NCBI GenBank assembly: GCA_963281255.1
Contig: OY725506.1
Coordinates: forward strand, 248,001 to 312,000
From: Aphrocallistes beatrix
Taxonomy: Eukaryota; Porifera; Hexactinellida; Sceptrulophora; Aphrocallistidae
DNA length: 64,000 bases
Direction: 5' to 3'
The position numbers and the translations under genes are program-made. Positions 306-51,415 of the stretch are shown here, in pieces. The notes under the pieces were generated by a model. It did no database searches and had not been told where the DNA came from. It saw only the letters and a program-made list of their open reading frames with translations. How positions within the stretch are numbered: position 1 is the first letter of the stretch; each line of letters begins with the position of its first letter.

Positions 306-695
306 GTTTGTATCTTTATTTGTTTATTTTTAAAGTTTGTATCTTTATTTATTTATTTTTAATTTCGTCGCGTTTTAGGATGTTTGTCTTCAAAAATAGA
401 AACTCCCAAGCCCCACAAATCTAAATATAGTGTCATTTATTATAACAAAACGACTGAAAATGTTGTGAAATATTATATTTTGATGATTTCTAAGTCATCA
501 TCATAAGGTAGAGCTGTAGTTCTGGGATGGACAACTTCTTCATATCTTGGGGGGTATTCTGGGATTGGGTATTGTCCCCAAGGAGTGCCACCTTCCACAC
601 CTATAAAACAAAGCTGGTTCAAAGATATATGATCTTCTTAAACCACGAGAAAGTAATTCAGACTTCGATCGGTGTTTTTATTTCTAATCCATGGT

Positions 696-1016
696 TTATT
701 TGTATGTAAAATTGTATATACGTATTTGTAAAGACTCACTTTGTTGCAATCTAAACGGTCTCGTTTGCATTGCTGTTGGTTGCTGATAAATTGCTCGGCT
801 ATTCAACTCAGATTGTTGTTCTCTACTTCTCCTTCTCCTTCTCCTCCTATCTCTTGCTGCTGCCTCCTGATTTTCTCTCTTTTCCAATTTTATTTTTTCC
901 CTTTTGTTGATGCAAAATTTTAGAATAGAACAAATAATACTGCAAATACAACAAGTCAATAACAGACACAACACAGGCGCACCTATTATGTACGCTATTG
1001 ATGGTATCTCAACCAT
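696..1016 (-). CDS. STM1, small single-pass membrane protein, function unknown
   Basis: Single-exon frame of 106 aa starting at ATG 1016. Residues about 8-34 are a very hydrophobic, Cys-rich segment (CLLLTCCICSIICSILKFC) that can span a membrane. It is followed by a strongly basic region with a run of eight arginines (about residues 57-64) and a Gln/Ser-rich tail. There is no separate signal peptide, so it may be a signal-anchor protein with a cytoplasmic basic tail. A TATA-like element (TATAAATA on the minus strand, near 1080) lies about 65 bp upstream. I do not recognise a family. The cysteines next to the membrane could be palmitoylated (inference). The opposite-strand frame here is a shadow. 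Confidence 0.5.
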   Translation of the reverse strand: MVEIPSIAYIIGAPVLCLLLTCCICSIICSILKFCINKREKIKLEKRENQEAAARDRRRRRRRSREQQSELNSRAIYQQPTAMQTRPFRLQQSESLQIRIYNFTYK

Positions 1017-1504
1017 TTCAACACTTTTCTAACACCTTTAATTATTTTATTTTCGATTTAGATCTTAGTTTGTGGGCTATTTATAATAGCATTATTGTCA
1101 CTTGAAAAGAACCAAATGTATGTCACTAATAAATGAATGAGAATAAAAACACAGCCAACATTATAAATAAATAAATAATTCCGCTTTTAGATCAGTTCAA
1201 TTCTATATTTAGATACCCATTCATTTTCATTTGTTTTCAAATCAAATCTTGTCCTACGTGCTAATTACATAGTTACAGTCTTTTGCATCACTGTGTGTCC
1301 TTTCTGAAATATTTATAATGGCGATACACCATACTGACTTCACCACCAAATTAACAGATAAAGTTTCCATATATTAGTATGCCTAACAATGTTCATTTTG
1401 CAGACCTCAACTTTCCACTAAATCTAGTGGCCATCACTTTCATATAGGCTCAGTCATATATAATAAAGCCTAGCTTGTTTCAAATCATTGAATTTACTCT
1501 GAAG

Positions 1505-1816
1505 ATGGATAAGTTTGCCAAATTGTCTGTTTTTCTTTCGCTTTTCGTGAGTGTCGTTTTAGCCGATGCGGATAACGGAATTTGCCTCGTCTGTTACTTC
1601 ACCTATTTCGTGCTACCGATTATAATCCTGGCGATCTTGATCGCACTTCCCACGATCTGCATATGTGTCTACTTCAAGTTTTTCTACAGAAAGAGTTATT
1701 GGAAAGAAAGTCCCCAAGCGAATACCGTCGAACTGAGTCCTGCCAAACTGGAAGCTGGTCCGCCCGCTTATGACGAGTCTACGGATGACAGGAAAACTTT
1801 GATTGAGGGTAAATAA
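1505..1816 (+). CDS. STM2, small type I membrane protein with PPxY tail
   Basis: Single-exon gene of 103 aa. I start it at ATG 1505, which begins a good signal peptide (residues 1-19, ending VVLADA). An upstream in-frame codon is less likely because TATATAATAA at about 1457 sets transcription near 1480. After a very short Cys-containing ectodomain there is a transmembrane helix (about residues 31-55). A basic stop-transfer stretch follows, then an acidic tail with GPPAYDES. PPxY motifs bind WW domains, for example in Nedd4-type ubiquitin ligases (established). The layout of signal, tiny ectodomain, TM and tail recurs in other genes of this intron. The specific function is unknown. Confidence 0.65.
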   Translation: MDKFAKLSVFLSLFVSVVLADADNGICLVCYFTYFVLPIIILAILIALPTICICVYFKFFYRKSYWKESPQANTVELSPAKLEAGPPAYDESTDDRKTLIEGK

Positions 1817-2251
1817 CTGAAACTTTGAAAGCTTGTTTCTTTGGATTTGTTTTCTTTTCAGTATTTGTTTGTTTGTTTGTTTTAAACCCCATCTCTAGTA
1901 TTGAGCGGATAATTCTATCTGTCAATATTCTTAAATACACAACTTTAACATTACCCATGGTTGTTGTTGAGATTTTGTTTCTGTTCATGTTATTCACCAT
2001 CAGCTGATTAAATTTATTTTTAGCTGGTTACTCTGATTTATTATTAGCACACACATTTCGTGCTCGCCGTGGTCATAAAGTTCTATTTATAGTAACACTC
2101 CTAGGCAGGAATTACAGGAATAGCGTAACAAAGCGTGAGACAAGCAATTGAAGGCACCTTTTTCTCTCTTAAATTACTCGAAATAGTCTAGGAGTGTTGC
2201 TAACTCATTTCCGGTTGATTTATTTTGTGCGGGGAAACTTAATTATAAATA

Positions 2252-2587: not shown

Positions 2588-2839
2588 ATGGCTTTCTTCA
2601 ACATTTACTTGTTTTCCACACTTCTATTTATCAACCTGGATGTAGTATGTGCTCAGACTCTTCAAGTGGGATATGTCCTCCTGTTGACATTTTCTGTCCT
2701 ATTTTGTGTCGCGATATCGCTATGTGTCTCGGCTATTGTGGTGTCGTATTTATGTGATGTCACTCGTAAACGGAGAATTAGAAATATTACAACTCCAGAA
2801 TCAAATATTTCGAATGAAACTACTCCAACGACGACATAA
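2588..2839 (+). CDS. STM3, small type I membrane protein
   Basis: Single-exon gene of 83 aa starting at ATG 2588, about 40 bp after a TATAAA box at 2551. The longer frame reaches back through a MITE and is rejected. Residues 1-22 look like a signal peptide ending VVCA. A transmembrane helix follows at about residues 28-54, then DVTRKRRIR as a basic stop-transfer, and a short Ser/Thr/Asn-rich tail ending TTPTTT. Same architecture as STM2 and STM8, but no obvious sequence identity. Family not recognised. Confidence 0.6.
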   Translation: MAFFNIYLFSTLLFINLDVVCAQTLQVGYVLLLTFSVLFCVAISLCVSAIVVSYLCDVTRKRRIRNITTPESNISNETTPTTT

Positions 2840-3998: not shown

Positions 3999-4217
3999 TT
4001 AGTAATCCCTGACTCTTTCGAATCCGTTTTCAACACCATACCGTCCTCTCCTCGAATCTACTAGTAGATTTGTAGTATCCAAACTCAAATTGGCCTCATT
4101 AATTCTCTTTCTAATGAAGTAAATAATAACAAGAATACAAACTGTAAAATGGATAAATAAAGACAATACAAAGATTGCCATAATGACTAAGAATATTACA
4201 AAATTTACACTGACCAT
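3999..4217 (-). CDS. STM4, small single-pass membrane protein
   Basis: Single-exon gene of 72 aa. I choose ATG 4217 over the upstream ATG at 4280 because a CTATAAAG box lies at about 4258, between them, and would place transcription start after 4280. A long hydrophobic segment (about residues 4-37) is followed by FIRKRIN as a basic stop-transfer and a polar tail with RRGR. It could be a signal-anchor or a cleaved signal plus helix. Family not recognised. Confidence 0.5.
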   Translation of the reverse strand: MVSVNFVIFLVIMAIFVLSLFIHFTVCILVIIYFIRKRINEANLSLDTTNLLVDSRRGRYGVENGFERVRDY

Positions 4218-4888: not shown

Positions 4889-5287
4889 CTACGTGTTAAC
4901 TGCACTATGCATAACTTCATAGTAAACTCCCTTCTTATTCCCATTCCTCTGCTCCTGTACCTTCGTTAGCACCAGGACTGGAGCATAGGTATTCTCGTAT
5001 TTCGCGCCTTTCTCTAGATCTCTTCGTTTAGGCGGGATTGGCTTGAATATATTTCCGGGCAGCTTTGACATTTTCACGTAACGGTCATCTGAATCTGAAT
5101 CTGACCCCTTTTCTTTTGTGTCATTTGTTTCCTCATTTTGTTTTTGTTTATTATTCCGACGCGTCATAAGAAAACAACCCAAACACACACAACTCAACAC
5201 GAGTAAAGGCGTGCATACAATGATTAACGCTAGCGGAATGCCGACATAGCAAAAGTACGTGCAATCTCCAATAGGACTCGCTTCCAT
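4889..5287 (-). CDS. STM5, small Cys-rich single-pass membrane protein
   Basis: Single-exon gene of 132 aa from ATG 5287. A CTATAAAAG box lies near 5332, 45 bp upstream, and the longer frame begins at a GTG. A short N-terminus (MEASPIGDCTYFCYVG) leads into a hydrophobic helix (about residues 16-41) with four cysteines, then MTRRNNKQK. The cytoplasmic-type tail holds an acidic DSDSDD stretch, a KPIPPKRR proline/basic motif and tyrosines in ENTYAPV and VYYEVM that could be phosphorylated (inference). Family not recognised. Confidence 0.6.
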   Translation of the reverse strand: MEASPIGDCTYFCYVGIPLALIIVCTPLLVLSCVCLGCFLMTRRNNKQKQNEETNDTKEKGSDSDSDDRYVKMSKLPGNIFKPIPPKRRDLEKGAKYENTYAPVLVLTKVQEQRNGNKKGVYYEVMHSAVNT

Positions 5288-6814: not shown

Positions 6815-7147
6815 TCAATTGAATCCGTCATACTTTGGAGAATTGGTCTTCATATCTGTCCTCAAAGTGCTTTCTTCGTTACAATCGAGCTGATAGTTCG
6901 GCGCTAGAATGGTGGAGTTGTTTTGTTTCATCCGTATATCTTCAAATCTCTCCCCTGTAATCTCTCCCACATTCATTTCTACTGTTCTTAACGAGGTCAA
7001 TCGTTTTACACTTGTGTCTCCTCTTTTTAGTTTGTTTCGATAATCCTTGAGACAGTAACACACGAAAAATCCCAAAACGATTGAGCATAGTATTGCAATG
7101 ACAGTGATGGTTATAATTGGAGTGAGTACGGTTCTTAAATCCAACAT
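6815..7147 (-). CDS. STM6, small single-pass membrane protein
   Basis: Single-exon gene of 110 aa from ATG 7147, with TATATAAA on the minus strand at about 7205-7215 (60 bp upstream). A hydrophobic helix spans about residues 8-33 and ends VCYCLKDYRNKLKR, a Cys-containing juxtamembrane basic patch. The rest is a polar tail of about 70 residues. Like STM1, it lacks a separate signal peptide. Family not recognised. Confidence 0.55.
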   Translation of the reverse strand: MLDLRTVLTPIITITVIAILCSIVLGFFVCYCLKDYRNKLKRGDTSVKRLTSLRTVEMNVGEITGERFEDIRMKQNNSTILAPNYQLDCNEESTLRTDMKTNSPKYDGFN

Positions 7148-7675: not shown

Positions 7676-8270
7676 TCAATTGATCTCACTAATCCGCCTT
7701 GTGCATAACATACCTATTGCATCCTTTGGAAACCCTGAATATACCCAACACGCATCCTCCAGTTCATCTTCTAAGTCAATCTTCACACCTTTCTCTACTG
7801 AACCCAGCCTAGGTGCTCGCTTCCCGAAAATTCCAAACTTCTTTTTCTGCTTCTGTTTCTGCTTCTTCATATTCTGTCGAGGGATGACATCTTCAGAAGT
7901 AACACTCAGGGATATTGGAGTATCTTCAGTCGGTTCTGTTGAACGTACTTCTTCTATAGTCTCCTTGATATCCTCTGCGACTCCAACAGCTTGATCTACG
8001 AATTCTTAATTAAATATTTCGGTAATGAGGAAATGGGTCGACTTTTCGAAGAAGGAAGTAGTTCGAATTGCAGATTTAGGAAATAGTTCGCTTTTTATCA
8101 TTAGGATTAATCGGTTTTTATGTGAACTATTTCCTTTTTGGAAAGTCGAACTATTTCCACCATACCAAATATTTCCTATAAATTTAAACCGTACTTAAAT
8201 GCTCACCAACTATTTCACACCTTTGTTCCAGCCCATCGGCCAAATCAGCTGAGATGTCCACGACACCTCA
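7676..8270 (-). pseudogene. GZ0, 5'-truncated remnant of the GZ gene family
   Basis: The terminal exon 8004-7676 is open, beginning in phase 1 after TTAATTAAG. It encodes EFVDQAVGVAEDIKET, then KKQKQKQKKKFGIFGKRAP, parallel to the last exon of GZ2-GZ4. Upstream, 8270-8207 matches only the end of a middle exon (ADLADGL followed by EIVG, GTGAGC donor). It is cut off at a CACAGTAT word where the repeated unit carrying GZ1 begins. No first exon is present, and a MITE (8021-8166) sits in the intron. It is most likely a broken gene whose 5' part was replaced during tandem duplication. Confidence 0.6.
8021..8166. mobile_element. MITE, 9-bp target duplication AAATATTTC (copy 1)
   Basis: The element begins GGTAATGAGGAAATGG and ends CTATTTCCACCATACC. 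It is flanked on both sides by AAATATTTC (8012-8020 and 8167-8175). It is the same family as the element in the RpS8 intron at 53825-53970, which has its own 9-bp duplication. The interior repeats the word AAATAGTTCGACTTT. Confidence 0.85.
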
Positions 8271-8493
8271 CAGTATACAGGGGTATGCTACGTATATTAA
8301 TATGTTAATGTATTGTGTTTAATTGGTTGAACTGAGCATATACATACAAAATGGTAAAATTTCAACAATTCTGAATGTGCATGCAAAGTAATACTAAGAT
8401 TGCAAATCAAAATTCAATTGAGTGAGGAGTTGTATCTCTCAGGAGCATGCATGTAGTCCTTAGTTACAACTGCAATCTCCTCTTTTGAATCTT

Positions 8494-9289
8494 TTAATCA
8501 TCCTCTCCTCCTGTTCCGCTATCCACACCATCCTTCACTGTATTTGCGACGTGTGTCATACCAATTATTTCAGTTGCTTGATCCAATCCATCAGCGGTGT
8601 CATCAGCAAAGTCAACCACCTCTTCAATCCCATCAATGCCTTCCGTAGCCATATCACCAGCTGCCAGACCCAGTTTAACAGCTCCCAGCCCTAATTTAGT
8701 CCCAATCTTAGCCACATTCATTCCCATCTTGATGTTCTCTTTCTTCTTCTCCTGTTTCTCCAATTCCTCTTGAGAGAGAACTATTTTAGGTTTGACAGCT
8801 TTCGGTTTGGGTTCTTTCCCTTCGTTTCTCGCATCGTTCAAAGCCGCAGCTTTATCCACTCCTTTATCCACGACCGAATCTAAATGAAGATTTTCCATTA
8901 AAGCTTAAATATTAAATTTATAAAATAGCGCCCAAATCCTAAGGAAAGCTAAATTTTTGGTATAATCGAGAATATTTTTGACAAAACTTTTGCCTCTTTC
9001 TATTAATCAAACTTCAAAGATGACTCGATTCATTTGAAAAAAATTATTATTATTATGTCTTAAAATTGTATATTTGCAACTTACCAACAACTCCTGTGTC
9101 CTTATTAATCTCATCTGCTTGATCGATGGTATTCGAAATTGTGTCGCACATCTCTCCACCAGGAAGACCTCCGAGTGATAGACCCAGCTTAACCGCGCCT
9201 AATCCCGCTATCCCGCCCAATTTTGCTAGTTTTAGTCCGGCCTTTAGTCCAGCTTTTATTTTATTGTTTTCCGGAGCTGCTGATGCCAT
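8494..9289 (-). CDS. GZ1, Gly/Lys amphipathic-repeat protein (two-exon, fused form)
   Basis: Exons 9289-9085 and 8879-8494, joined in phase 1 (GTAAGT donor, ATTTAG acceptor), give 196 aa. Exon 1 encodes a Lys/Gly amphipathic stretch (KAGLKAGLKLAKLGG...GAVKLGLSLGG). Exon 2 has a charged EEKQEKKK-type linker and a second such stretch (VAKIGTKLGLGAVKLGL), then an acidic helix ending in EII. The reading frame passes straight through the position used as a donor in GZ2 (here GTATGA). It continues into a tail (VANTVKDGVD...GGEDD) homologous to the end of the last exon of other copies. A deletion therefore appears to have fused exon 2 to the C-terminal tail. No signal peptide and no recognised domain. 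Confidence 0.65.
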
Positions 9290-9938
9290 TTGTTTGTCTG
9301 TTTTGTTTCGCTGCTTTATGGAAGAGTTGAATGTTATCTTCTCTCTGATTTTTGTCTTTTTATATTGAATTTTCGCTCTGTTCGTTATATTAACGATCTT
9401 GCCTTGTTCCAATTTCTGATGATTTGTCTCAAAGTTAAGTAATTATTAATGGAGCATTGCTGACTAGCTTGCACTTTTGATACTAATTTTAGTTCAATAT
9501 GTATATCCAATATTGTTTGATACTAATTTTAGTACTACACGTATATCCAATATATTTTAGTGCTCTCATCTAACTCACATTAATTACCTAAATCGTTTGT
9601 AACTAATGATTGTTTTGTTCGGCGATGTTATTTATATTTACAATTGTCTCTATGAAATTTGAGAACATTTGTTGTACAGTCGACCCTTTTGATTGGACAA
9701 CTTTATTCTAGCATAAAGGAATTCCAATTTCCGGAGTCAACAGTATTGGGATTTAAATGGTAGAATTGATCAAATTAAAGTTATGGGAGAGTAATGTATC
9801 CTTACTTATTCAATGACGCGGCACTGCTATGCAATTTCTTAATAGTGCATGTAATTGTAGTAGCCATATTTGATACTAATTTTAGCTTTATCTACCGTAC
9901 CTTACTTAAAGAAATAACTGTGAAACACGTAACTTTAC

Positions 9939-10686: not shown

Positions 10687-12632
<1,946 letters not shown>

Positions 12633-14823: not shown

Positions 14824-16040
14824 TTAGTTAGTCGCTGCTCCTCTCCCGAAAATGCCAGCCACCTTCTTCTTTTGGTTGGATTTCTGTTTTTTCTTGTTTT
14901 CTAAAGCTTTGCCAGGGTCTGAAGGCTGACTGACTAGCATCCGTGGCTTTTCAGCTTGCTCGATTGAGGGAGATTTTTGCTCGATTGAAGGAGACTTTTG
15001 CTCAATTGAAGGAGACTTTTGCTCAATTGAAGGAGACTTTTGCTCGATTGAGGGAGACTTCTCGTCTATCGAAGGAAACCTTTCGTCGATTGAAGGAGAT
15101 TTATCATTGCTTGGGGAAGACTCTCCATCTGAATTAGAGTCTGAACTCTTCTCTTCAAGCTGTTCTAGAACTTCATCTCCAATGTCTGCGATGTTCTCTC
15201 CAAAGTCAACAGCTTCATCTAATACAATTATATATCAATAACTCAATACTAAAAAGTAGCTAATTATATTATCATAAGATTCAATACGAAGTATTTGATT
15301 GGTGAACTCTGTACTTACCAACTATTTCAGTTGCTTGTTCGAGTCCATCTGCTACGTCATCAGCTATGTCTACCACCTCTTCAATTCCATCCACTGCATC
15401 CGTTGCTATCCCACCAGCTGCCAAGCCTATTTTCAGAGCTCCTACTCCAAATTTAGTTCCAATCTTAGCCACTTTCATTCCCGTTTTCATATTCTTTTTC
15501 TTCTTCTCCTGTTTCTCCAATTCCTCTTGAGAGAGAACTTTTTTAGGTTTGACAGCTTTCGGTTTGGGTTCTTTGCCTTCGTTTCGCGCATCGTTCAAAG
15601 CCGCAGCTTTATCTACTCCTTTATCCACGAGCGAATCTAAATGGATATTTCCATTTTTACTAATCTTAAATTTATATAATATCGCTCTAATCCTAATGAA
15701 AGCTAAATTTTTGGTATAATCGAGAATATTTTTTGAAAACTTTTGCCTCTTCCCATTAATCAAACTTCAAAGATGACTAGATTCATTGGAAAAAATATTA
15801 TTATTATATCTTAAAATTGTATACTTGCAACTTACCAACAACTCCTGTGTCCTTATTAATCTCATCTGCTTGATCGATGGCATTTCCAATTGTGTCGCAT
15901 ACTTCTCCACCAGGGACACCTCCGATTGATAGACCCAGCTTAACCGCGCCTAATCCCACTTTCCCGCCCAATTTTGCTACTTTTAATCCGGCCTTTAGTC
16001 CAGCTTTTGTTTTCTTGTTTTCCGGAGCTGCTGCTGCCAT
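14824..16040 (-). CDS. GZ3, three-exon GZ protein with expanded heptads and cut C-terminus
   Basis: Exons 16040-15836, 15636-15319 and 15218-14824, all phase 1, give 305 aa. The first exon begins MAAAAPENKKTKAGLKAG, and the middle exon has the FGVGALKIGLAAGG core. The last exon carries about seven SPSIEQK/SIDEK heptads (a 21-bp minisatellite at about 14950-15100), against four in GZ2 and about one in GZ4. It ends prematurely as GIFGRGAATN. A deletion removed the conserved KLGLGVANKVKD tail and joined the frame to downstream sequence. Otherwise intact, so possibly functional. Confidence 0.65.
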
Positions 16041-17297: not shown

Positions 17298-18493
<1,196 letters not shown>

Positions 18494-30789: not shown

Positions 30790-30838
30790 TTGTTCTACCA
30801 CAAAAAAATAAAGATTCTTACTTTGTATCCAACGAGTA

Positions 30839-34580: not shown

Positions 34581-34768
34581 CCCTATAACGACCATTCCAA
34601 ACCCTGAGAGTCGATTATTTTCCAGAATATCTGGTACTTATTAGGACAAGTCCATTGAAAATACTAAGTAATACTCGTGATGTCAGTAATGGAACTCTGA
34701 AACACTATAAAAGCAACTGATAAATGGGAGTTAAGTAGAAAAATCAAATCAACTCCAATATCTACAAA

Positions 34769-37228: not shown

Positions 37229-37756
37229 ATGACACAGGTTCCTCCAACCCTCCAATTCTCTGATTTCGATGCTCCTAGAAAAGGACCCTTCCCGTATATT
37301 GGATTTAACCCAGAGCTACTTGAGGACAACAACACAGATATTTTAGGATCAAATCTAAATCCAATTTCACGGAGTACTTCGAGTAGTCTTCTCTTGCCTA
37401 ATAATCCCATTCGCGAGACGTCGAGCTGTACATGTATTTGCACTTCAGAGGAAAATGTAAGAATCGAACGTGAAACCAATGTTAACGCAGTTCCCAAAGG
37501 TTCTAGGATGCTTTTACCAGTTGAAGCAGCCTTGTACAATAGTTCCTCGTCTGAGGAGATTAACATACTCCCTAGAGCATCTTCATTTAGCAGCCCAAGA
37601 CAGTATCAGCGCCGTCCGGCAGTGAGAAATAGGAAATTTGTGACGGACAAAGGCCCTTCAGATAAAAACCAGAATCAAAGACCTAAAAGTCCAATGTGTA
37701 TGGCTAAAAGTAAATTCACCCGTTTCGGGAAACAACTTGTAAGGTACAAGAAATAA
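37229..37756 (+). CDS. CAP5, diverged CAP-family gene lacking the terminal helix
   Basis: Single-exon gene of 175 aa from ATG 37229, with TGTATAAATA at about 37152. It keeps a Ser/Asn-rich N-terminus, a Cys motif (ETSSCTCICTSEEN) and a basic C-terminal region, then ends KFTRFGKQLVRYKK, just where the other members start their amphipathic helix. Its membership rests on the Cys motif, position and layout, so it is the least certain of the five. Confidence 0.55.
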   Translation: MTQVPPTLQFSDFDAPRKGPFPYIGFNPELLEDNNTDILGSNLNPISRSTSSSLLLPNNPIRETSSCTCICTSEENVRIERETNVNAVPKGSRMLLPVEAALYNSSSSEEINILPRASSFSSPRQYQRRPAVRNRKFVTDKGPSDKNQNQRPKSPMCMAKSKFTRFGKQLVRYKK

Positions 37757-39648: not shown

Positions 39649-40554
39649 CTAAAATTCTTCTTCTATGTCGAAGTAGAACCTCATGATACAGGGGCTACAT
39701 TTCACATGGTCTATCTCATCACTGAGAGAGTACAGCTCCAGTTTGTGCTCATGAGAATCGTTGCTCGTCTTCGCTCTCCCAGCCTGTTCGGCACTGCTGT
39801 ATGTCAGCTGGGCAGGCGGTAGACTCTCGTCAAACTCTCCTGGAATCCTCCGGACGTAGAACTTCAAGTTGTCCTCTACCTTCCCTACCAACTGCAGATG
39901 GTAACTCCTGATATAGAAACTGGGACCCTCCAGCTGTCCTCCCGTATGTGTCGGCACCACTCTCCACTCCACGCCCTCCAAACACTTCTTTCGCGTCTCA
40001 ACGAACTTAGAAATGCGGTTTCTATCTAGCAACCCTTCAATACGCCGCTTCATGGAAGCGTTTACCACTTTAAAATGTGAGTTTTCAGTTTCGAGATGTT
40101 CTAACCTCAGTTCGTAATGCTCAATCCTGCACTCCCACTTATGAGTTTCCATCTGCAATTGGCTCTGAGTTGTAAAAGTACAGCCGAAATCAGCGAAAGG
40201 ACATTTCTTTTCGAAGTATTCGCATTCTTCCAAATGTTCGTTAATGAGCAAAATCTCACCGGTCCATCCGCACCCCTGATCAGAAAAGGGACACTTTCCT
40301 TCCATTTTCCCGATGTTTTGGCGCAGAATTTCGGCTGGCGTTCCTTCAAATTTATTTTCGCAACACTCCATACATGTTGTCTTTCCGTCGTATACAACTG
40401 CATCAACCATTATCCCTTGACATTTGGGACAGGTGATTAACTGCTCTTCAAGATTTGAAGTCTCACTCTTTAGAATTTGTCTTTTGTAGAAACTTTTGCT
40501 TCTACGTCTTGAGATTTGTCGATCCGGTTCATTAGATGTGTAGTTATCAGCCAT
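39649..40554 (-). CDS. TRAF-type zinc-finger protein 1
   Basis: Single-exon gene of 301 aa from ATG 40554. The domains run in order. A CPKCQG...CMECC cysteine cluster (about residues 41-67) looks like a degenerate RING. Two TRAF-type zinc fingers follow (CPFSDQGCGW to H-EEC, then CPFADFGC to H-WEC; about 89-141). Next is a coiled coil (about 143-185). The last 105 residues, WRVVPTHTGG to MRFYFDIEE, have the size and position of a TRAF/MATH domain, although I do not see a clean match. Such proteins act as cytoplasmic signalling adaptors or ubiquitin ligases (family knowledge). Divergent neighbour: TRAF-like gene 2 starts 291 bp away on the other strand. Confidence 0.8.
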   Translation of the reverse strand: MADNYTSNEPDRQISRRRSKSFYKRQILKSETSNLEEQLITCPKCQGIMVDAVVYDGKTTCMECCENKFEGTPAEILRQNIGKMEGKCPFSDQGCGWTGEILLINEHLEECEYFEKKCPFADFGCTFTTQSQLQMETHKWECRIEHYELRLEHLETENSHFKVVNASMKRRIEGLLDRNRISKFVETRKKCLEGVEWRVVPTHTGGQLEGPSFYIRSYHLQLVGKVEDNLKFYVRRIPGEFDESLPPAQLTYSSAEQAGRAKTSNDSHEHKLELYSLSDEIDHVKCSPCIMRFYFDIEEEF

Positions 40555-40845: not shown

Positions 40846-41763
40846 ATGTCGACAAAGATTACAACTGAAGATCAATTCAATGAGCTGTCCTGTGTATCAA
40901 ATTCAGAATCAGGGTTCGGTGGCTATCGAATGGATCTACTAAGTCAGAATCTCAGCGGACTAGAGAAAAGTCTGGTATCCTGTCCAGTATGCTCGGGTAT
41001 AGTACGGAATGCTACCGTGTTTGACGGAAAGACTACATGTTATAACTGTTGCGAGGATAAGTCTCGTTCATCTTCGAGCGTGCTACTGTTAGGAAGCATT
41101 GGAAAACTCCAAGTGAGATGTCCGCTTAATGAAAGGGGGTGTCCATGGGGAGGCGAGCTAGGAGACTTCAGGACACATTTGACGGTCTGTGAGTTCCTCA
41201 TTGCGGAGTGTCCTTACGCGAAATACGGATGCAAGTTCCAATCCTTGGAAGCTAGAGAAGTAGCGAAACATAAATCAGACTCTGCCTTGGAACATTTGGA
41301 GATGAGAATGGATATGCTCGAGCTAGAGAATTCACAGCTGAAAACTTCCAACAAAAAGATTGACAACCAACTCAACGCTCTTTTGAATAAAGCCAAGTTC
41401 TCTAAATTTATTGAGAGCCGCAAGAAGTGTTTGGAGGGCGTGGAGTGGAGAGTGGTGCCGACACATACGGGAGGACAGCTGGAGGGTCCCAGTTTCTATA
41501 TCAGCAGTTACCATCTGCAGTTGGTAGGGAAGGTAGAGGACAACTTGAAGTTCTACGTCCGGAGGATTCCAGGAGAGTTTGACGAGAGTCTACCGCCTGC
41601 CCAGCTGACATACAGCAGTGCCGAGCAGGCTGGGAGAGCGAAGACGAGCAACGATTCTCATGAACACAAACTGGAGCTGTACTCTCTCAGTGATGAGATA
41701 GATCATGTGAAGTGTAGCCCCTGTATCATGAGGTTCTACTTCGACATAGAAGAACTTTACTGA
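40846..41763 (+). CDS. TRAF-type zinc-finger protein 2
   Basis: Single-exon gene of 305 aa from ATG 40846. Same order as gene 1: CPVCSG...CYNCC cluster, CPLNERGCPW and CPYAKYGC zinc fingers, coiled coil, C-terminal domain. The N-terminal half is clearly diverged from gene 1. From WRVVPTHTGG onward the two proteins are nearly identical, and the DNA over about 340 bp differs at only a handful of sites. That contrast implies recent sequence exchange limited to the C-terminal domain. Likely an adaptor, with different upstream partners but the same C-terminal binding surface (inference). Confidence 0.8.
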   Translation: MSTKITTEDQFNELSCVSNSESGFGGYRMDLLSQNLSGLEKSLVSCPVCSGIVRNATVFDGKTTCYNCCEDKSRSSSSVLLLGSIGKLQVRCPLNERGCPWGGELGDFRTHLTVCEFLIAECPYAKYGCKFQSLEAREVAKHKSDSALEHLEMRMDMLELENSQLKTSNKKIDNQLNALLNKAKFSKFIESRKKCLEGVEWRVVPTHTGGQLEGPSFYISSYHLQLVGKVEDNLKFYVRRIPGEFDESLPPAQLTYSSAEQAGRAKTSNDSHEHKLELYSLSDEIDHVKCSPCIMRFYFDIEELY

Positions 41764-42117: not shown

Positions 42118-42678
42118 TCAACACATTATCTCGAAGTAGAACCTCATGATACAGGGGCTACATTTCACATGGTCTATCTCATCACTGAGAGAGTACAGCT
42201 CCAGTTTGTGCTCATGAGAATCGTTGCTCGTCTTCTCTCTCCCAGCCTGTTCGGCACTGCTGTATGTCAGCTGGGCAGGCGGTAGATTCTCATCAAACTC
42301 TCCTGGGATCCTCCGGACGTAGAACTTCAAGTTGTCCTCTACCTTCCCTACCAACTGCAGATGGTAACTGCTGATATAGAAACTGGGACCCTCCAGCAGT
42401 CCTCCCGTATGTGTCGGTTCCACTCTCCACTCCACGCCCTCCAAACACCTCTTGCGCGTCTCGACGAACTTAGAAATATGGTTTCTGTCTAGCAACCCTT
42501 CAATACGCCGCTTCAACTGGGCATTCTTCCTCCACAGCTGTCTGTTCTCAAACTCTAAGTTTTCCATTCTCTTTTCAATATTCCTGATCTCTCTGGGGAA
42601 ATCGGACCCCTTTTTGGTTGGACTGTTCCCCTCTTTTTTGGAAATACCTAACACTTTCTTGATCATTTGCTTTGACAT
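42118..42678 (-). CDS. TRAF-like protein 3, lacking zinc fingers
   Basis: Single-exon gene of 186 aa from ATG 42678. A short basic N-terminus (KKVLGISKKEG) leads directly into the coiled coil (RNIEKRMENLEFENRQLW) and the same C-terminal domain as genes 1 and 2, nearly identical in sequence. The Cys cluster and zinc fingers are absent, so it could act as a competitor of the full-length proteins (inference). The frame is intact. A decayed copy of its 5' part lies at 45855-45975. Confidence 0.7.
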   Translation of the reverse strand: MSKQMIKKVLGISKKEGNSPTKKGSDFPREIRNIEKRMENLEFENRQLWRKNAQLKRRIEGLLDRNHISKFVETRKRCLEGVEWRVEPTHTGGLLEGPSFYISSYHLQLVGKVEDNLKFYVRRIPGEFDENLPPAQLTYSSAEQAGREKTSNDSHEHKLELYSLSDEIDHVKCSPCIMRFYFEIMC

Positions 42679-43520: not shown

Positions 43521-43819
43521 TAGTAAATGACGAATTATTCAAATCACAAATCCAGTTTATTTTCACTTTTACTATATCCTAAATTAGTCCCAATATTCTC
43601 ATCTTTGACAACAAGTAAATATGATTAATTATTAATATCCATCCAAACGATGTTTATTTCAATTAAAGTAAACAAAATAACAGAAACAATATATGTATAT
43701 AATATTTTAGGCACACTCTTGAGTAATAAAATGAAAATAGGAATAAACAATTTATATAAACAAACGAGCATAGCTCAGTTCTATAAGCGTTGTTAGCTTA
43801 GTCAAGTTGGATACGGAAC

Positions 43820-45448
43820 TCACTGAGAATTCTCACCCAATGGATAAGGACTCCTAGCAACAGGTGGTTTGGGCGGAATGTTATTCATGGTCATGTAATG
43901 TGTAAGTTGTCCTGGGACCTCTGCCAGCACTTCCTTAGCGAGGTCGAAATGTTTCTCGTTACTTTTAACGTCTCGCATTGGGACAAATTGGACAATGTCA
44001 CTTTTCATATTGTGTCCCGTTTTCGAATGGATCAGAGGGACATCGTCTGCATCTAGCTTGTGCATGTTAGAAAAGTCCGCACCCCCCACACCCACGATTA
44101 CGACTGACAAGGGTAGAGCTGAGGATTCGACTATCAGATCCGAGCTCCGAATCATATCATCAATGACTCCATCGGTTATGATGAGCAAGATAGTGAATGC
44201 GTACTCTTCAACGTGGTTCTCTGCGACACCTTTCGCATACATGAGAATCTCTCCAAAGCGAGTTGGCCCGGACAGGCGACACATTGAGAGGGTTTGCTTG
44301 TAGGCATCCAAGATCCCTGCCACTGCACGCACATCTGGGTTCGGTTGTGCGTTCAAGTTGAAGCAATGGTGAGCCTGAGCATAATTCGGAGGCAATTTAG
44401 CTCCGAATCCAAGAGCTGGGATCAGTTGGTCCGTGTCATAAGGTATCAGGATGTTCCCGACACTCTTGATGGCTTCGACGTATTCGTTGTCAGTGGTTCC
44501 GATGTAGTGGAGCGAACTGGGATCTGCTGGGTTACCATTCGAACCTGTGAAGTCAATCGCGACGATCAGTTGAATTTCTAAGCCCCCTTTCAGGTAATCA
44601 ACGAATGTATGAACAGGAATGATTTTGACATTCGTGAATTGGAAAATTCCTGAATTATTTCCTTCCTTTTCCCACTTTTCTGCATTGATAATTTCAAATT
44701 CTTTCGTTCCAGAGTTGATTTCTGCTAGAGAGGTAGAAAAGGTTCCAATCGGATCTGGAATTCCATTCGCATTCCAATCGAAAACATCGAATTTCAACGG
44801 AGTGTTGATATCCCCGGAGCATAGCAACCACATTCCAATTTCGAAAGGTGTGAAAGTTGGATTCAAAGTGTTTGAAATCACCTCACTCTTGTAAACAATA
44901 ACAGAATCTTTATCTTCTTTCTGCCTTCGTACCTCAAAATATGGATCAGATTTGTCAAAACCATCCTTTCTATCCAATTTTTTGCATTGAGCAGATAATT
45001 TGACTTTAGATTTAATCCCATTGGTTTCCTCTGCAAACAACTGAATCTTTCCTCGATCTTTTGCTCCATCTTTCAGAACGAATAAGATTGGTTCTCCGGA
45101 ACTCGCCAACTCTCCCATTCGAACTTGGACCTCTCCAATAAAATCATTCTTACCCACAACATCGGAGTCTTCGCAAGTGAATTTCAAAATCTGTTCTTCC
45201 TCGAAGTAGTACTTCATCTGAAATACTGTTTCAAATTTGGGATTTTGGGTGTTTTTCTTCACTTCTGTTTGTCCGATTTTATTGTACTTACTGGAGTTTC
45301 CTTCTTTTTGGAATATTGTCACAAATGGATCTGATTCCGAAGTGTCCACTTTTGGCAGATCAAAGCATGCGATTGATATCTCAACCATCGAAGTACAGTC
45401 ATCTTCATAGAGAAATGGTTGAAGCGTAGACGTTGAGGTAGTAGCCAT
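43820..45448 (-). CDS. Copine 1 (C2-C2-vWA)
   Basis: Single-exon copine of 542 aa. ATG 45448 is chosen because the longer frame has no ATG. Two C2 domains (about residues 10-130, with SESDPFVTIF and VGKNDFIGEV; about 140-265, with KSDPYFEV and NTLNPTF) are followed by the copine vWA domain. Its metal site begins DFTGSNG (about residue 300) and it contains HYMTMNNIPP near the end. Copines bind phospholipid in a Ca2+-dependent way and recruit partners through the vWA domain (established). It faces copine 2 head to head, 1.25 kb apart. Vertebrate copines have many introns; this one has none, suggesting retroposition of an ancestor (inference). Confidence 0.88.
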   Translation of the reverse strand: MATTSTSTLQPFLYEDDCTSMVEISIACFDLPKVDTSESDPFVTIFQKEGNSSKYNKIGQTEVKKNTQNPKFETVFQMKYYFEEEQILKFTCEDSDVVGKNDFIGEVQVRMGELASSGEPILFVLKDGAKDRGKIQLFAEETNGIKSKVKLSAQCKKLDRKDGFDKSDPYFEVRRQKEDKDSVIVYKSEVISNTLNPTFTPFEIGMWLLCSGDINTPLKFDVFDWNANGIPDPIGTFSTSLAEINSGTKEFEIINAEKWEKEGNNSGIFQFTNVKIIPVHTFVDYLKGGLEIQLIVAIDFTGSNGNPADPSSLHYIGTTDNEYVEAIKSVGNILIPYDTDQLIPALGFGAKLPPNYAQAHHCFNLNAQPNPDVRAVAGILDAYKQTLSMCRLSGPTRFGEILMYAKGVAENHVEEYAFTILLIITDGVIDDMIRSSDLIVESSALPLSVVIVGVGGADFSNMHKLDADDVPLIHSKTGHNMKSDIVQFVPMRDVKSNEKHFDLAKEVLAEVPGQLTHYMTMNNIPPKPPVARSPYPLGENSQ

Positions 45449-45559
45449 TCTTACTGAGCTGAGTTCGAAATTTGAAAAGTGAACATACACATGTTGTATT
45501 TATACAAATTAATGAGTGTGAATAATCTCTTTAGTATCAAATGTGTAAGACATAGTTCA

Positions 45560-45780
45560 AGTGAATAAACTGGATTTATGAATTGAAGCATACCTCATTT
45601 GCTCAGCAATATTATATATTGCTTTCCTTCTTATGTATTTGACAAAACTATAAAGTTGTTGATTTTGACAAAGACATAGGAAGGTGGATTTAAACTGAAC
45701 TTATGATTTGAAGTATGCATCATTTACTTGGTAATATTATATATTGCTTACCTTCTTATGTATTTGATAATTATAATTGT
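45560..45780. repeat. Direct repeat in the inter-copine spacer
   Basis: The segment with AATATTATATATTGCTT and CCTTCTTATGTATTTGA occurs twice (about 45607-45650 and 45730-45775), preceded by similar AGTAAATGATGC/TGAGCAAATGAG contexts. Confidence 0.6.
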
Positions 45781-45854
45781 AAGAAGCTTTTGATTATGAA
45801 AGTCAACCAATGGATATTTCTATTTGTTTTGCTATCGATGCCCTTTAATCCACT

Positions 45855-45975
45855 GGGACCCTCCAGCTGTCCTCCCTTTTGTGTCGGTACCATCTCCACT
45901 CCACGCCTTCCAATCACTTCTTTCGCGTCTCAACGAATTCAGAAATGCGGTTTCTATCTAGTAACCCTTCGTCAA
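45855..45975 (-). pseudogene. Relic of a TRAF-like gene
   Basis: The plus-strand text (CTGGGACCCTCCAGCTGTCC ... GAAATGCGGTTTCTATCTAG) matches the minus-strand TRAF-like genes across the start of the conserved C-terminal domain and the end of the coiled coil, with small deletions. It is followed by the (GTTT)n tract, as at TRAF-like 3. It is a decayed duplicate lodged between the copines. Confidence 0.8.
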
Positions 45976-46054
45976 CACCTGTACTTTCCTTGAATTGCTG
46001 TTTTGATATGTTGTAGCTAATATTATCATAATACTAAATTAACTTGTGTGTGTA

Positions 46055-46110
46055 TGTGCTTGTTTGTTTGTTTGTTTGTTTGTTTGTTTGTTTGTTTGTT
46101 TGTTTGTTTG

Positions 46111-46156
<46 letters not shown>

Positions 46157-46185
46157 TGGTTGTTTGGTTGTTTGGTTGTAAATGC
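46055..46185. repeat. Compound (GTTT)n(GATT)n microsatellite
   Basis: About 60 bp of GTTT, then about 50 bp of GATT, then GGTTGTTT units. Confidence 0.95.
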
Positions 46186-46694
46186 ACCCCAATTATCTTA
46201 AACAGCCTGGAATTCGTACGAAGTTTTAAAAACTAGGGAGTGTTTAGAAAATTATTAATTTATGGATTTTCTTCCGACCCCCTTCCCGTTTATTAGATTT
46301 CGTAAATTAACTTTGAAATTTTTGTCAAACACAGCATTTTATCGTATGTATTGCATCAATTATCTTCTATCTGAATTATTTGATACGTCAAACTGAACTT
46401 ATGCATTTAATGTGTCACGTCACGTCTATATATATAAATATCGATTTTTGAAAGATCAGTTCAATAAACTTAGCATAATTACCAAATACATAGTAAGGTA
46501 CATAATGAGGATCATGCTCCAAATCATTAATCACTTTCACAACGTATTTAAACATAAGCATTTGATACGAAGAGATTTCCTTATGACGAAACTGATCTGT
46601 GTTCTGTAACTATATTTAGAATTTATTATTCACACTCATTCAATTGTATAAATATGTTAACTTTTCAAATTTTCGAACTAGCTCTCAGGTAAGA

Positions 46695-48377
46695 ATGGCT
46701 ACTGCCTCAACGTCTACGCTTCAACCATTTCTCTATGAAGATGACTGTACTTCGATGGTTGAGATATCAATCGCGTGCTTTGACCTGCCAAAAATGGACA
46801 TTTTTTCTGAATCAGATCCATTTGTGACAATATTCCATAAAGAAGGAAACTCCAGTAAGTACAATAAAATCGGACAAACAGAAGTGAAGAAGAATTCCAA
46901 AAATCCCAAATTTGAAACTGTATTTCAGATGAAGTACTACTTCGAGGAAGAACAGATTTTGAAATTCACTTGCGAAGATTTCGACCATGTGGGAAAGAAT
47001 GATTTTATTGGAGAGGTCCAAGTTCGAATGGGAGAGTTGGCGAGTTCTGGAGAACCAATCTTATTCGTTCTGAAAGATGGAGCTAAAAGTCGAGGGAAGA
47101 TTCAGTTGTTTGCAGAGGAAACCAATGGCACCAAATCTAAAGTCAAATTATCTGTTCAATGCAAAAAACTGGACAAAAAGGATTTTTTTGGCAAATCTGA
47201 TCCGTATTTTGAGGTACGAAAGCAGAGAGAAGATAAGCATGCTGTTGTTGTTTACAAGAGTGAGGTTATTAAAAACACTTTGAATCCAACTTTCACACCT
47301 TTTGAGATTGGAATGTGGTTGCTATGCTCCGGGGATATCAACACTCCATTGAAATTCGATGTTTTCGATTGGAATGCGAATGGAATTCCAGATCCGATTG
47401 GAACCTTTTCTACCTCGCTAGCGGAAATCAACTCTGGAACGAAAGAATTTGAAATTATTAATGCAGAAAAGTGGAAAAAGAAAAGAAAGAATTCAGGAAT
47501 TTTCCAATTCACGGATGTCAAAATCATTCCTGTTCATACATTCGTTGATTACCTGAAAGGGGGCTTAGAAATTCAACTGATCGTCGCGATTGACTTCACA
47601 GGTTCGAATGGTAACCCAGCAGATCCCAGTTCGCTCCACTACATCGGAACCACTGACAACGAATACGTCGAAGCCATCAAGAGTGTCGGGAACATCCTGA
47701 TACCTTATGACACGGACCAACTGATCCCAGCTCTTGGATTCGGAGCTAAATTGCCTCCGAATTATGCTCAGGCTTACCATTGCTTCAACTTGAACGGACA
47801 ACAGAACCCAGATGTGCGTGCAGTGGCAGGGATCTTGGATGCCTACAAGCAAACCCTCTCAATGTGTCGCCTGTCCGGGCCAACTCGCTTCGGAGAGATT
47901 CTCACGTATGCTAAAGGTGTCGCTGAGAACCACGTTGAAGAGTACGCATTCACTATCTTGCTCATCATAACCGATGGAGTCATTGATGATATGATTCGGA
48001 GCTCGGATCTGATAGTCGAATCCTCAGCTTTGCCCTTGTCTGTCGTAATCGTGGGTGTGGGGGGTGCGGACTTTTCTAACATGCACAAGCTGGATGCAGA
48101 CGATGTCCCTCTGATCCATTCGAAAACGGGACACAAGATGAAAAGTGACATTGTCCAATTTGTCCCAATGCGAGAGGTGAAAAAAAGCGGGACACATTTC
48201 GACCTCGCTAAGGAAGTGCTTGCAGAGGTTCCAGGACAACTTACGCATTACATGACCAGTAATAATATTCCACCCAGGCCACCTGTAGCTAGGAGCTATC
48301 AAAATATTCTTCCTCAATTTAGTGTCCCTCCTTATCCATTGGGTGAGAATCCTCAGGGAGTTCCGTATCCAACTTGA
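46695..48377 (+). CDS. Copine 2 (C2-C2-vWA)
   Basis: Single-exon copine of 560 aa from ATG 46695 (a longer frame starts at TTG). C2A, C2B and vWA as in copine 1. C2A and C2B differ at scattered sites (for example KMDIFSESDPF versus KVDTSESDPF), whereas the vWA domain is almost the same. The C-terminus carries an extra Pro/Tyr-rich tail (PQFSVPPYPLGENPQGVPYP). The DFTGSNG metal site is kept. TATAAATATG lies about 45 bp upstream. Inverted relative to copine 1; the homology continues into the 3' flank to about 48600. Confidence 0.88.
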   Translation: MATASTSTLQPFLYEDDCTSMVEISIACFDLPKMDIFSESDPFVTIFHKEGNSSKYNKIGQTEVKKNSKNPKFETVFQMKYYFEEEQILKFTCEDFDHVGKNDFIGEVQVRMGELASSGEPILFVLKDGAKSRGKIQLFAEETNGTKSKVKLSVQCKKLDKKDFFGKSDPYFEVRKQREDKHAVVVYKSEVIKNTLNPTFTPFEIGMWLLCSGDINTPLKFDVFDWNANGIPDPIGTFSTSLAEINSGTKEFEIINAEKWKKKRKNSGIFQFTDVKIIPVHTFVDYLKGGLEIQLIVAIDFTGSNGNPADPSSLHYIGTTDNEYVEAIKSVGNILIPYDTDQLIPALGFGAKLPPNYAQAYHCFNLNGQQNPDVRAVAGILDAYKQTLSMCRLSGPTRFGEILTYAKGVAENHVEEYAFTILLIITDGVIDDMIRSSDLIVESSALPLSVVIVGVGGADFSNMHKLDADDVPLIHSKTGHKMKSDIVQFVPMREVKKSGTHFDLAKEVLAEVPGQLTHYMTSNNIPPRPPVARSYQNILPQFSVPPYPLGENPQGVPYPT

Positions 48378-48610
48378 TTAAGCTAGCAACGCTTATAGAA
48401 CTGAGCTATGCTCGTTTGTTTGTATAAATTGTTTATTCCTATTTTTCATTTTATTACTCAAGAGTGTGCCTAAAATATTATATACATATATTGTTTATCT
48501 TATTTTTGTTTACATTATTTGGTAAATAAACATCGCTTGGATATGGATATTAAAAATAAATAATCATATTTACTTGTTGTCAAAGATGAGAATATTGGGA
48601 TTAAGTCAAC

Positions 48611-50104
48611 CAATGGATTTTTCATCTTGTTTGCTGGCAATGCCACTGAATTTAACTCATCTTTTCAGTTATAATTAAAATTTTAATTATAATACTATTA
48701 CCTTCAAAACCTAACAGTCAGATTTCTGCCAAATTTCGCATATCGGATTCATTTATGCTGTGAATATGAATTATAAACTTTTTTTCTCAAAATTCCATTC
48801 TTTTTTTCTGTTTTTTTCTCGAATAATGAAGGTAATTTTATGAATAATAAGTAGCATATATATATACGTATTTTCACACCTAATTGAAGTTTGATGCAGC
48901 TGTATTGTCAGTCTGTCTACCATGCATATATGCTAACATACATTATAACCGGAATGCATGAATATTGAATCTAGACATTGCACTGTTGGATAATAAAACT
49001 ATTGTCTGAGATTTCGATGACTTTCCAACATTGTATTATACCATTATAATTACCACTACGTATTTGGTGATGATATTGTAAGGGGACATTGTGTATTTCA
49101 CTCATATCAAAACCCATTATGTTCCAATGTTAGCATTCCTTGTTAACTTTCCACCTCTACCAGATCACGCAATATGCCAATTTGTAAGGTAAGCTATTAT
49201 CCGATCTCTCTTTACTTAAAATAAAATTCTCAATTATCTGATATATCCTTATGTTGACACATGATACATTACAGATCAATGTAATACAACTACTTACTTC
49301 CCTCCCTATTCTAAAAGCTTACTTAAATGTGAAAGAGTAATGGGGCACGTGGGTACTCAGGTGACTTATTCTTATATTGTAACAACCTCTTCAAATTCTT
49401 TATTGATTAGATCTGTTTAAGATTATTTCCAATGGAGTTGATTGGTGGATGGAACTATCCTCTTAGTGCAGCTCCCATTAGGCATAGGTTTTATGTCATT
49501 GGCGAGGTATAACGTCCGTACGTTCGTTCGCGCGATTTTGGAAATCTAATAGATTGAATCACGACAAATTTTGGATGAACTTTCCTTATAAAGTGTAAAT
49601 ATTCCCCTGGGTGCATCATCTGTTCTTACAAGATGAAAAGTTGTATTGACCAATGAGAACTTAGCCTCGGATAAGAGACACAGCTCAGTACAGCTCTCTG
49701 AAATCTTATATATTTGTTCACGAGTGTTCCACGTATGATTTCAGAGTGATATATTTCTCCATTATTATTTTTCAAGTGATTCAAGCAATTTTTAGGGGGA
49801 AAACATAGCTATTCATAAGCATATTCAAATGAACACGTCCGTTAAAATATATTTTTTAACACCTAGCGATGTTATCAAATCATTAATGTATCATAATTAC
49901 AAATCCCTTAGTGGTTAGGTGTATACATGCTCTGATATATATTTTACATAGTAAACTCACGTCTTTCTCGTTGCACTTACGCATTGATGTAACCAATCAT
50001 TTATTTCTGTGCTTTGCTATAGATCCGCTGTTATCATCCTTAACACGGAGTTATATAAATAGGAAGAAATGTACTTACTGCAAGAAAAGTGGTATTTTGG
50101 GACA
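48611..50104. other. AT-rich spacer, nothing recognised
   Basis: No gene supported. The only G/C-rich spot is near 49505-49545 (ACGTCCGTACGTTCGTTCGC), of unknown nature. Confidence 0.5.
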
Positions 50105-50404
50105 ATGAATTTCTATATTTTTTATTTCTGTATTTTAGCATTTCAAGCTGAGTTCGTCTTCTGTATCTCAAAGTTGGAGATTACTCGTTACGTCATAATC
50201 CCTACAGTTGTTATTGTAGGGTCTTTCTTTTTCATTCTCCTTTGCATGCTTTCGTTGCTTTTTTATTTGAAATTCGGACATAAGATTTCCAAACTGATTA
50301 AGGGCAATCGTCTCAGTGATGAGAAGACCGTTGTCTCTGTGAGGAATACTGTTCTGCCTGAATTCCACCTCGAAAACACGAGCACGAAGAGTGAACGTGT
50401 TTAA
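50105..50404 (+). CDS. STM8, small type I membrane protein
   Basis: Single-exon gene of 99 aa. ATG 50105 is preferred to an in-frame ATG at 50069 because TATATAAATAG at about 50051 puts the transcript start between them, and 50105 begins a signal peptide (residues 1-20, ending AEFVFC). A short ectodomain (ISKLEITRY) is followed by a transmembrane helix (about 31-56), KFGHKISK and a polar tail. Same layout as STM2 and STM3. It lies near the 3' end of the SBNO intron. Confidence 0.65.
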   Translation: MNFYIFYFCILAFQAEFVFCISKLEITRYVIIPTVVIVGSFFFILLCMLSLLFYLKFGHKISKLIKGNRLSDEKTVVSVRNTVLPEFHLENTSTKSERV

Positions 50405-51415
50405 TTATTTCATTTTATTAATGTTGTACATAAGAAGTGTGATTAGATATTTTCTTTTTAGAATAAACTTACAATTTTGGGACAAACTAGTATTGTATGC
50501 TCAGTTAAACACGAGATTTAAGTGTAAAAATGTGATATTTTAGTTTTCCTTTTTTACTCAAAGATTCAACAAATAAATCCAGTGTTACTAAACTAAGTGG
50601 CACTTCTATTTTTAGAATTAGACACACTATTTTATAACACATATGGTTTAAGTTAGTACTGAGCCTACTGTTATTTTAAAGGTAATTTTCTCAGCACAGA
50701 ATTCACCATATTATATTCAGTTCACAGTCTGTTGCTTTCCTCAGGAATGATCCAACCTAGTCTATTTGTTATCAAATTTGTTTTATAAGCTAAAAGTACT
50801 TTAATTATAATTTCTTGTCGATGTATTAATTCATAACTCGTGGGTTGAAAATATTTTTGTTAACAGAACAGAATTTACTATTTAAGGCTTGTGCGAAGTT
50901 TCGATATGTGAGAATATTTAATATATGTATGTATAAGTGGTTATAACGTAGCACGTTAGCGTAACGTTCTATCAAAATGGTATTGCGAATAATCATACTT
51001 TTGTGTTAGTGACCGAATAAGTGGTAGAGAGAGCGTGGCGGTTATAACTACATAGCATCCTATCTAGAACTTAAACTAATCACCTGGGATCCTATTTATA
51101 GCATGGACTCACATTTCTAAGGTTTCCCGCCCAAAATTACTTAACCGGAAATGAGCTAGCAGAATCCATAGTTAATGAGTGTATTAACAAATATTATTTT
51201 CATTTTATTTCGGCGTATGGTCTTTCCAATGAATTCCAAACAAACAAAATGTTGTTTTTACAGTGTAAATATATAATACATAATAACCAAATTTAGTGAA
51301 CATAAACATCAATATTGACTGGAGTCACTAGATGCTAGTACATTCATTTCAAGATGCATTTAAAAGGTATCAACATAGTATCAATATTCTATTTATATAA
51401 CTGTGTTTATTCTAG
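50405..51415. other. 3' end of the SBNO intron
   Basis: No gene. Contains a degraded element at about 51075-51175 (TTTCCCGCCCAAAATTACTT; ACCGGAAATGAG) that is the inverted match of pieces near 2200, 10245 and 59240. Ends with the TTCTAG acceptor. Confidence 0.55.

Follow-up and report, generated by a model that had tools for sequence, protein, structure and literature searches.

A probable 51 kb intron of the strawberry notch gene in the glass sponge Aphrocallistes beatrix encloses about 22 other genes

Can a single intron of a conserved gene house an entire neighbourhood of other genes? The question is raised by a window of 64,000 nucleotides from Aphrocallistes beatrix (positions 248001-312000 of contig OY725506.1, here C20), which holds two coding pieces of the strawberry notch gene (SBNO) with some 51 kb of sequence between them. 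We analysed this window and its surroundings and searched the assembly, 100.5 Mb in 28 contigs. Positions lacking a contig prefix are those of the window, and slashes mark exon borders. The parts of the host gene that fall in the window are as follows.

31-305, plus strand: SBNO exon, the penultimate coding one; its first two bases finish the phase-1 codon G/GA begun at C20:217026.
306-51415, plus strand: probable SBNO intron of 51,110 bp, GT-AG, phase 0, placed by its splice dinucleotides and the domain junction.
51416-51877, plus strand: last SBNO coding exon, including the stop codon TAA; a single match in the genome.

Exon 31-305 lies between the acceptor CTTTTAG/GA and the donor GAAAG/GTTTGT, and the last exon runs from the acceptor ATTCTAG/GTCACA to its stop codon. 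When the two are joined, their match to the SBNO alpha/beta domain (Pfam PF25373; E = 7.9e-27) takes in all 119 positions of the profile, and the exon-exon junction falls within this domain. The interval 306-51415 therefore separates two consecutive coding pieces of SBNO. That these are adjacent stretches of the SBNO C-terminus on one strand had been proposed in a sequence-only reading of the window, and this proposal holds. The accompanying statement that both exons are in phase 0 is correct for the 51 kb intron but not for the 5' end of exon 31-305, which is phase 1.

The remainder of the host lies upstream of the window. Five pieces of PF13872 (AAA_34; C20:204574-209471) and four of PF13871 (Helicase_C_4; C20:213674-216968) follow each other in order on the plus strand, collinear with the window exons and each found once over its profile; neither domain has a second copy elsewhere in the genome even at E = 10. 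The last exon likewise gave one match across the genome, the search having been made with that exon and not with exon 31-305 on its own. A search of the PDB with the SBNO C-terminus returned a single irrelevant match (E = 0.23). The other genes of the interval thus sit between two consecutive host exons, across an intron with GT-AG ends and a fitting phase, and we consider it very probable that 306-51415 is one SBNO intron. Repeats of about 140 bp stand in tandem between two of the helicase pieces (C20:214833-216146).

The interval contains about 22 genes, nine on the plus and 13 on the minus strand, as counted by hand rather than with a gene predictor or RNA. The earlier figure of about 24 was right in placing genes on both strands; the number was too high, in part through tandem exons being counted as genes. 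They comprise seven orphan open reading frames (ORFs), four genes of a family A and one A-like gene, one gene of a family B, four of a family C (the fourth weak), three TRAF-like genes and two copines, arranged as listed here.

696-1016, minus strand: orphan small membrane-protein ORF, matching only itself; one strong hydrophobic segment.
1505-1816, plus strand: orphan small membrane-protein ORF, self match only; hydrophobic segment.
2588-2839, plus strand: orphan small membrane-protein ORF, self match only; hydrophobic segment.
3999-4217, minus strand: orphan small membrane-protein ORF, self match only; hydrophobic segment.
4889-5287, minus strand: orphan small membrane-protein ORF, self match only; hydrophobic segment.
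6815-7147, minus strand: orphan small membrane-protein ORF, self match only; hydrophobic segment.
7679-9292, minus strand: family A copy 4, rich in Gly and Lys; exon a lies at 9089-9292 and exon b at 8551-8880, and the ORF 7679-8005 looks by eye like a diverged exon c.
10690-12632, minus strand: family A copy 3; exons a, b, b' and c.
14827-16040, minus strand: family A copy 2; exons a, b and c, with phase-1 G/AT borders by eye.
17301-18496, minus strand: family A copy 1; exons a, b and c.
23175-24100, minus strand: family A-like gene; 23265-23543 is 32% identical to family A exon b, and the ORF 23792-24100 is assigned by position only.
25763-29114, minus strand: family B gene, in which a single exon is present in six tandem copies; the ORF 28812-29114 is a possible first exon.
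30168-30665, plus strand: family C gene 1, from family matches.
33668-34156, plus strand: family C gene 2, from family matches.
34769-35239, plus strand: family C gene 3, from family matches.
37229-37756, plus strand: possible distant family C gene 4, from a BLAST match at E = 0.014 only; absent from the genome-wide family C matches.
39649-40554, minus strand: TRAF/SIAH-like zinc-finger gene; Pfam zf-TRAF at E = 0.00067, under the curated cut-off.
40846-41763, plus strand: TRAF/SIAH-like zinc-finger gene; Sina_ZnF at E = 4.7e-5, under the cut-off; its C-terminal part is an inverted copy of that of the gene at 39649-40554.
42118-42678, minus strand: TRAF-like relative with the same C-terminal part and no zinc-finger match.
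43820-45448, minus strand: single-exon copine; Pfam match above the curated cut-off.
46695-48377, plus strand: single-exon copine, a 95% inverted copy of the copine at 43820-45448; Pfam match above the cut-off.
50105-50404, plus strand: orphan small membrane-protein ORF, self match only; hydrophobic segment.

Only the copines among the nested genes pass the curated Pfam cut-offs; the TRAF-like matches fall below them. Families A, B and C match nothing in Pfam at E = 0.1, and the six orphans other than that at 2588 have no Pfam match or matches under the curated cut-offs. Rfam and tRNA scans of the window gave no matches. The orphans each carry one strong hydrophobic segment, with Kyte-Doolittle maxima of 2.6-3.0, in a set chosen for its membrane-protein look before hydropathy was scored. 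By eye, each family A gene is divided into three or four exons, and the borders are in phase 1.

The two copines form the arms of a palindrome (43674-48506) with about 1.2-1.5 kb between them. Some members of families A and C (10690-11085, 23265-23543 and 30168-35239) have a weak basic and glycine motif in common, with BLAST E = 0.002 between some of them, and the two families are perhaps one old superfamily represented on both strands. A bacterial origin of family A was considered and rejected: the genome_contigs scan, which was run for A and not for B or C, gave 202 pattern matches, none of which was confirmed. Counts of GxxxG were not clearly above those of shuffled sequences, and we therefore dropped the name glycine zipper for families A to C.

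Where else do these families occur? Genome-wide searches, which score the best candidates only, placed all nine family A matches at E of 0.001 or better, and all six family B matches, inside the 51 kb intron. For family C, searched from three genes, four of the five matches at E of 1 or better lie there and the fifth (E = 0.85) is on C7. The seven matches to the orphans at E of 0.01 or better are the ORFs themselves, in a search with one joined query that is possibly less sensitive. Copines, in contrast, are dispersed (12 matches in about 11 genes, two of them in the intron), and the TRAF-like genes also occur elsewhere. The suggestion that the intron is a nursery of lineage-specific families is thus borne out for A, B and the seven orphans and nearly so for C, and fails for the copines and the TRAF-like genes.

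Pairwise ratios of nonsynonymous to synonymous divergence (dN/dS), calculated by the Nei-Gojobori method with our own script and given here as values without a significance test, are below 1 in 30 of the 33 pairs that gave a ratio. They are 0.28 for the copine pair, 0.11-0.37 for family A exon b (all six pairs below 1), 0.31-0.43 for family C (three of three) and 0.19-0.46 for the TRAF-like C-termini (three of three). The range is wider for family B (0.30-1.28; a ratio was obtained for 14 of the 15 pairs and was below 1 in 13) and for family A exon a (0.38-2.32; four of six below 1). By this measure the nested genes behave as real genes under selection; the comparison covers genes with paralogues, a set that leaves the seven orphans aside. 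Synonymous divergence is 0-0.65 in family B, 0.13 between the copines, 0.08-0.19 across copines and TRAF-like genes, 0.15-0.39 for family A exon b and 0.85-2.3 in family C. Such unequal values mean that the copies differ in age, and suggest that the interval was probably filled in stages.

The sequence-only reading took this to be a single host intron of its kind, which the surroundings do not support. The preceding exon ends at C20:217026 with a phase-1 donor, G/GTATGT, and the window exon opens with GA, which together restore a glycine codon. The intervening intron is therefore C20:217027-248030: 31,004 bp, phase 1 and GT-AG, and filled with genes in its turn. It holds XPO1/CRM1 (C20:218297-221602) as a single open frame of 1,102 residues on the SBNO-sense strand. 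This frame matches Pfam CRM1_C at E = 2.1e-124 and is the sole full-length CRM1_C match found in the genome; XPO1 is a single exon at this site and may be a retrogene. The other CRM1_C match, of 58 profile positions, is on C1 beside copies of a membrane-protein family that is also present in the 31 kb intron, and near this fragment short stretches of the 31 kb intron recur as a mosaic.

That family forms a tandem array at C20:229286-247516, with six near-full-length intronless members of about 385 residues and one fragment. By eye its members resemble seven-transmembrane proteins, and they have no Pfam match at E = 0.1. It has at least 110 matches genome-wide, some with stop codons, and so is a further exception to the idea of a nursery. 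The 31 kb intron also carries pieces resembling a THAP/P-element transposase (C20:232473-234321, minus strand) and a long inverted repeat flanking an ORF of tandem SRKSYPTG repeats (C20:223969-228680). Minus-strand ORFs are found between other SBNO pieces as well, of 373, 223 and 134 residues in C20:206027-209166 and of 380 residues in C20:211674-212813.

For a measure of how unusual such introns are in this genome, we took 69 of 78 Myosin_head matches, from 11 genes with at least three matches each; eight further genes, which contribute the remaining nine matches at one or two apiece, were excluded. From one match to the next we obtained 58 gaps, with a median length of 276 bp; the longest is 8,017 bp, and none reaches 30 kb. 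Undetected small exons would make these gaps overestimates rather than underestimates, and the sample leaves out genes with few or no introns. Against the myosin family the two SBNO introns are clear outliers. Published mean intron lengths of glass sponges are 341 bp in Oopsacas minuta (PMC10280926) and, on matching scaffolds, 194 bp in O. minuta and 516 bp in A. vastus (PMC10282587).

The claim that other introns here measure 0.1-0.8 kb does not survive for the neighbourhood, which includes the 31,004 bp SBNO intron and one of 8,078 bp in an adjacent anoctamin gene; both extend beyond the window and are not visible whole within it. The anoctamin pieces follow SBNO downstream in order: PF16178 with positions 1-27 of PF04547, then positions 11-41 (E = 0.0038) and 86-155 (E = 0.03) of PF04547, both below the Pfam cut-off, and positions 279-388 (E = 3.4e-29). 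The first intron seen, C20:305908-313985 (window 57908-65985, running past its end), holds four minus-strand ORFs of 126 to 242 residues in two families. A later stretch of about 8 kb, in which undetected anoctamin exons may lie, has four ORFs on the minus strand, which group with the TRAF-like genes (Pfam zf-TRAF was checked in one of the four). The anoctamin gene thus appears to be organised like SBNO, with nested ORFs, which supports our interpretation of the SBNO interval. Nesting is not confined to SBNO.

These observations bear on the possibility that the 51 kb and 31 kb intervals were misplaced between SBNO exons during assembly. Tandem and inverted arrays such as those at this locus are hard to assemble. 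Nevertheless, there are no N bases in the 134 kb around the locus, and two independent misjoins would be required, both in SBNO introns and both preserving order, strand and fitting phases; the anoctamin gene, which appears to have a large intron with nested ORFs of its own, also speaks against an artefact. We regard an assembly error as very unlikely.

Several features weigh against continuous transcription and splicing of SBNO through functional nested genes. The donor motif GTTTGT of the 51 kb intron is present twice, the second copy 29 bp downstream: positions 306-362 are a 29 bp tandem duplication (96% match) starting at the donor, and splicing from the downstream copy would change the reading frame. 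By eye a GTTTGT donor also serves another SBNO intron, at about C20:211039, behind an exon that lies in no domain match. Nine of the nested genes and XPO1 are in the SBNO sense, so that their 3' ends must be ignored by SBNO. The sense-strand signal AATAAA exceeds the Markov expectation in both introns (65 against 40.5 in the larger, 43 against 32.7 in the smaller). Neither intron has a recursive splice site in the sense direction, and three of the dN/dS values (1.28 in family B, 2.02 and 2.32 in family A exon a) are above 1. On the antisense strand AATAAA occurs 82 times in the 51 kb intron, again more than the Markov model predicts (the mean of 40.5 being that of simulations in sense), and 33 times in the 31 kb intron. 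Recursive splicing as a means of removing the giant introns was rejected, with 0 and 0 sites in sense and 1 and 0 in antisense (Markov means 0.17 and 0.47).

The frequent sense AATAAA would also suit a gene that has undergone fission or is read mostly as truncated isoforms: the majority of SBNO transcripts would then stop short of the two giant introns, leaving the C-terminal exons as relics or as part of another transcript. By eye, a sequence at about 378 resembles an acceptor, and its use would create a short alternative exon that soon meets a stop codon. Nested genes in human can provoke intron retention, exonization and early polyadenylation of their hosts (PMC3192792). By analogy, some SBNO transcripts may end early, and the site near 378 could serve in this. 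Yet both C-terminal exons are open and keep a conserved domain across their junction, where a relic would decay, and the 275-nucleotide exon has splice sites at both ends. Fission or truncation as the general state of the gene seems to us highly improbable.

The many sense-orientation genes in the intervals also invite the thought that SBNO mRNA consists of three pieces, each transcribed separately, that are joined in trans. In one glass sponge, 4% of long reads are reported to show spliced-leader trans-splicing (PMC10282587). Leader addition differs, however, from exon-to-exon trans-splicing of coding sequence, and all pieces are collinear on one strand, for which cis-splicing is the simpler account; we find joining in trans barely conceivable. 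A more elaborate version would have no continuous SBNO pre-mRNA at all: 31 kb and 51 kb of independent genes would isolate its last two pieces (about nine of these genes in SBNO orientation in the 51 kb interval, and XPO1 in the 31 kb one), the mRNA would be built in trans and the interval would be a protected, exclusive home of families A, B and probably C. This, too, is extremely unlikely in our estimation.

Our preferred explanation remains a single host spliced in cis. The evidence is anatomical, and from it we infer that SBNO would be transcribed as a single unit spanning at least 95 kb (C20:204.6-299.9 kb), with its two final introns, of 31.0 and 51.1 kb, turned into hosts for other genes. 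Each nested gene, on whichever strand, would rely on its own promoter and 3' end, and the SBNO pre-mRNA would run through them and be cis-spliced from base 305 to base 51416. The interval would have filled gradually, some arrivals coming from families also found elsewhere (copine, TRAF-like and the membrane-protein family of the 31 kb intron); transposase pieces are present, and a possible XPO1 retrogene may be among the arrivals. Tandem and inverted duplication would then have multiplied genes and exons, and some families (A, B, probably C and the orphans) may have arisen, or survived, only here. Since SBNO exons are needed on both sides, large deletions and breakpoints should be selected against, and nested content might be gained more easily than lost. 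Gain of nested structures more often than loss is also reported in a study of the TipE cluster (PMC3240667).

Intron-nested gene clusters are already known, and the SBNO case is an extreme example. The closest precedent that we found is the GMC oxidoreductase cluster in an intron of flotillin-2 (Flo-2) of insects, an intron of more than 83.2 kb in Drosophila melanogaster (PMC1891103). As at SBNO, the nested genes are contained entirely in a single intron of a conserved gene, in a cluster that has grown by tandem duplication. The D. melanogaster cluster is described as one family and one other gene, nearly all antisense to the host; the SBNO intron has five families and orphans on both strands, about nine genes in sense and 13 antisense, some with matches only there, and an adjacent second giant intron. 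Next comes the cluster of TipE sodium-channel subunit genes in the last intron of CG18675, with a host span of about 20 to 100 kb depending on species (PMC3240667). According to the same study it has five genes in D. melanogaster, four of one family, and the nesting is kept in most insects studied.

Comparable in kind are two genomes that are rich in nested genes. Aphrocallistes vastus is reported to have 2432 of them (12.4%), as well as many tandem clusters of single-exon, lineage-specific genes (PMC10282587), and the ctenophore Hormiphora californensis 2357 nested intronic genes (PMC8527503). A. vastus belongs to the same animal class as the SBNO host, and its many nested genes support our explanation. 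The portions of these two accounts available to us describe no single intron of this size and gene number. Our literature search found no paper linking strawberry notch with a nested gene, nor with an intron and a sponge genome.

A ctenophore host was also considered, in view of the nested genes of Hormiphora; an innexin search found nothing, which carries little weight as the control for that search was equally without a match, and it was the mitochondrial AGA usage that pointed to a glass sponge. The mitochondrial code agrees with this placement. C28 (17,996 bp; G+C content 28% in the 10,000 bases read) carries COX1, whose 16 AGA codons stand opposite Ser (six), Ala (four), Gly (three), Asn (two) and Lys (one), and never Arg, in the best PDB match, whereas Arg is the counterpart of seven of its nine CGN codons. 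TGA is used 14 times and ATA 42 times in this gene, and TGG never. AGR was reported to stand for serine in all three hexactinellids known at the time and in no demosponge or other lower metazoan; elsewhere it has that meaning only in some bilaterians. The hexactinellids also show a near absence of UGG and a preference for AUA (PMC2267718). The codon usage of COX1 fits that of a glass sponge.

What sets SBNO apart is that several families are mixed on both strands, that some of them match nothing else well in this genome, and that a further giant intron lies beside the first and contains the sole full-length XPO1 match. The locus is a test case for the limits of nesting in an animal with introns typically a few hundred bases long: one conserved host is apparently spliced across about 22 genes, plus several in the preceding intron that include XPO1 in the same direction. 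With families A and B, and nearly C, having no match elsewhere in the genome, it allows one to ask whether introns of constrained genes shield young gene families from loss.

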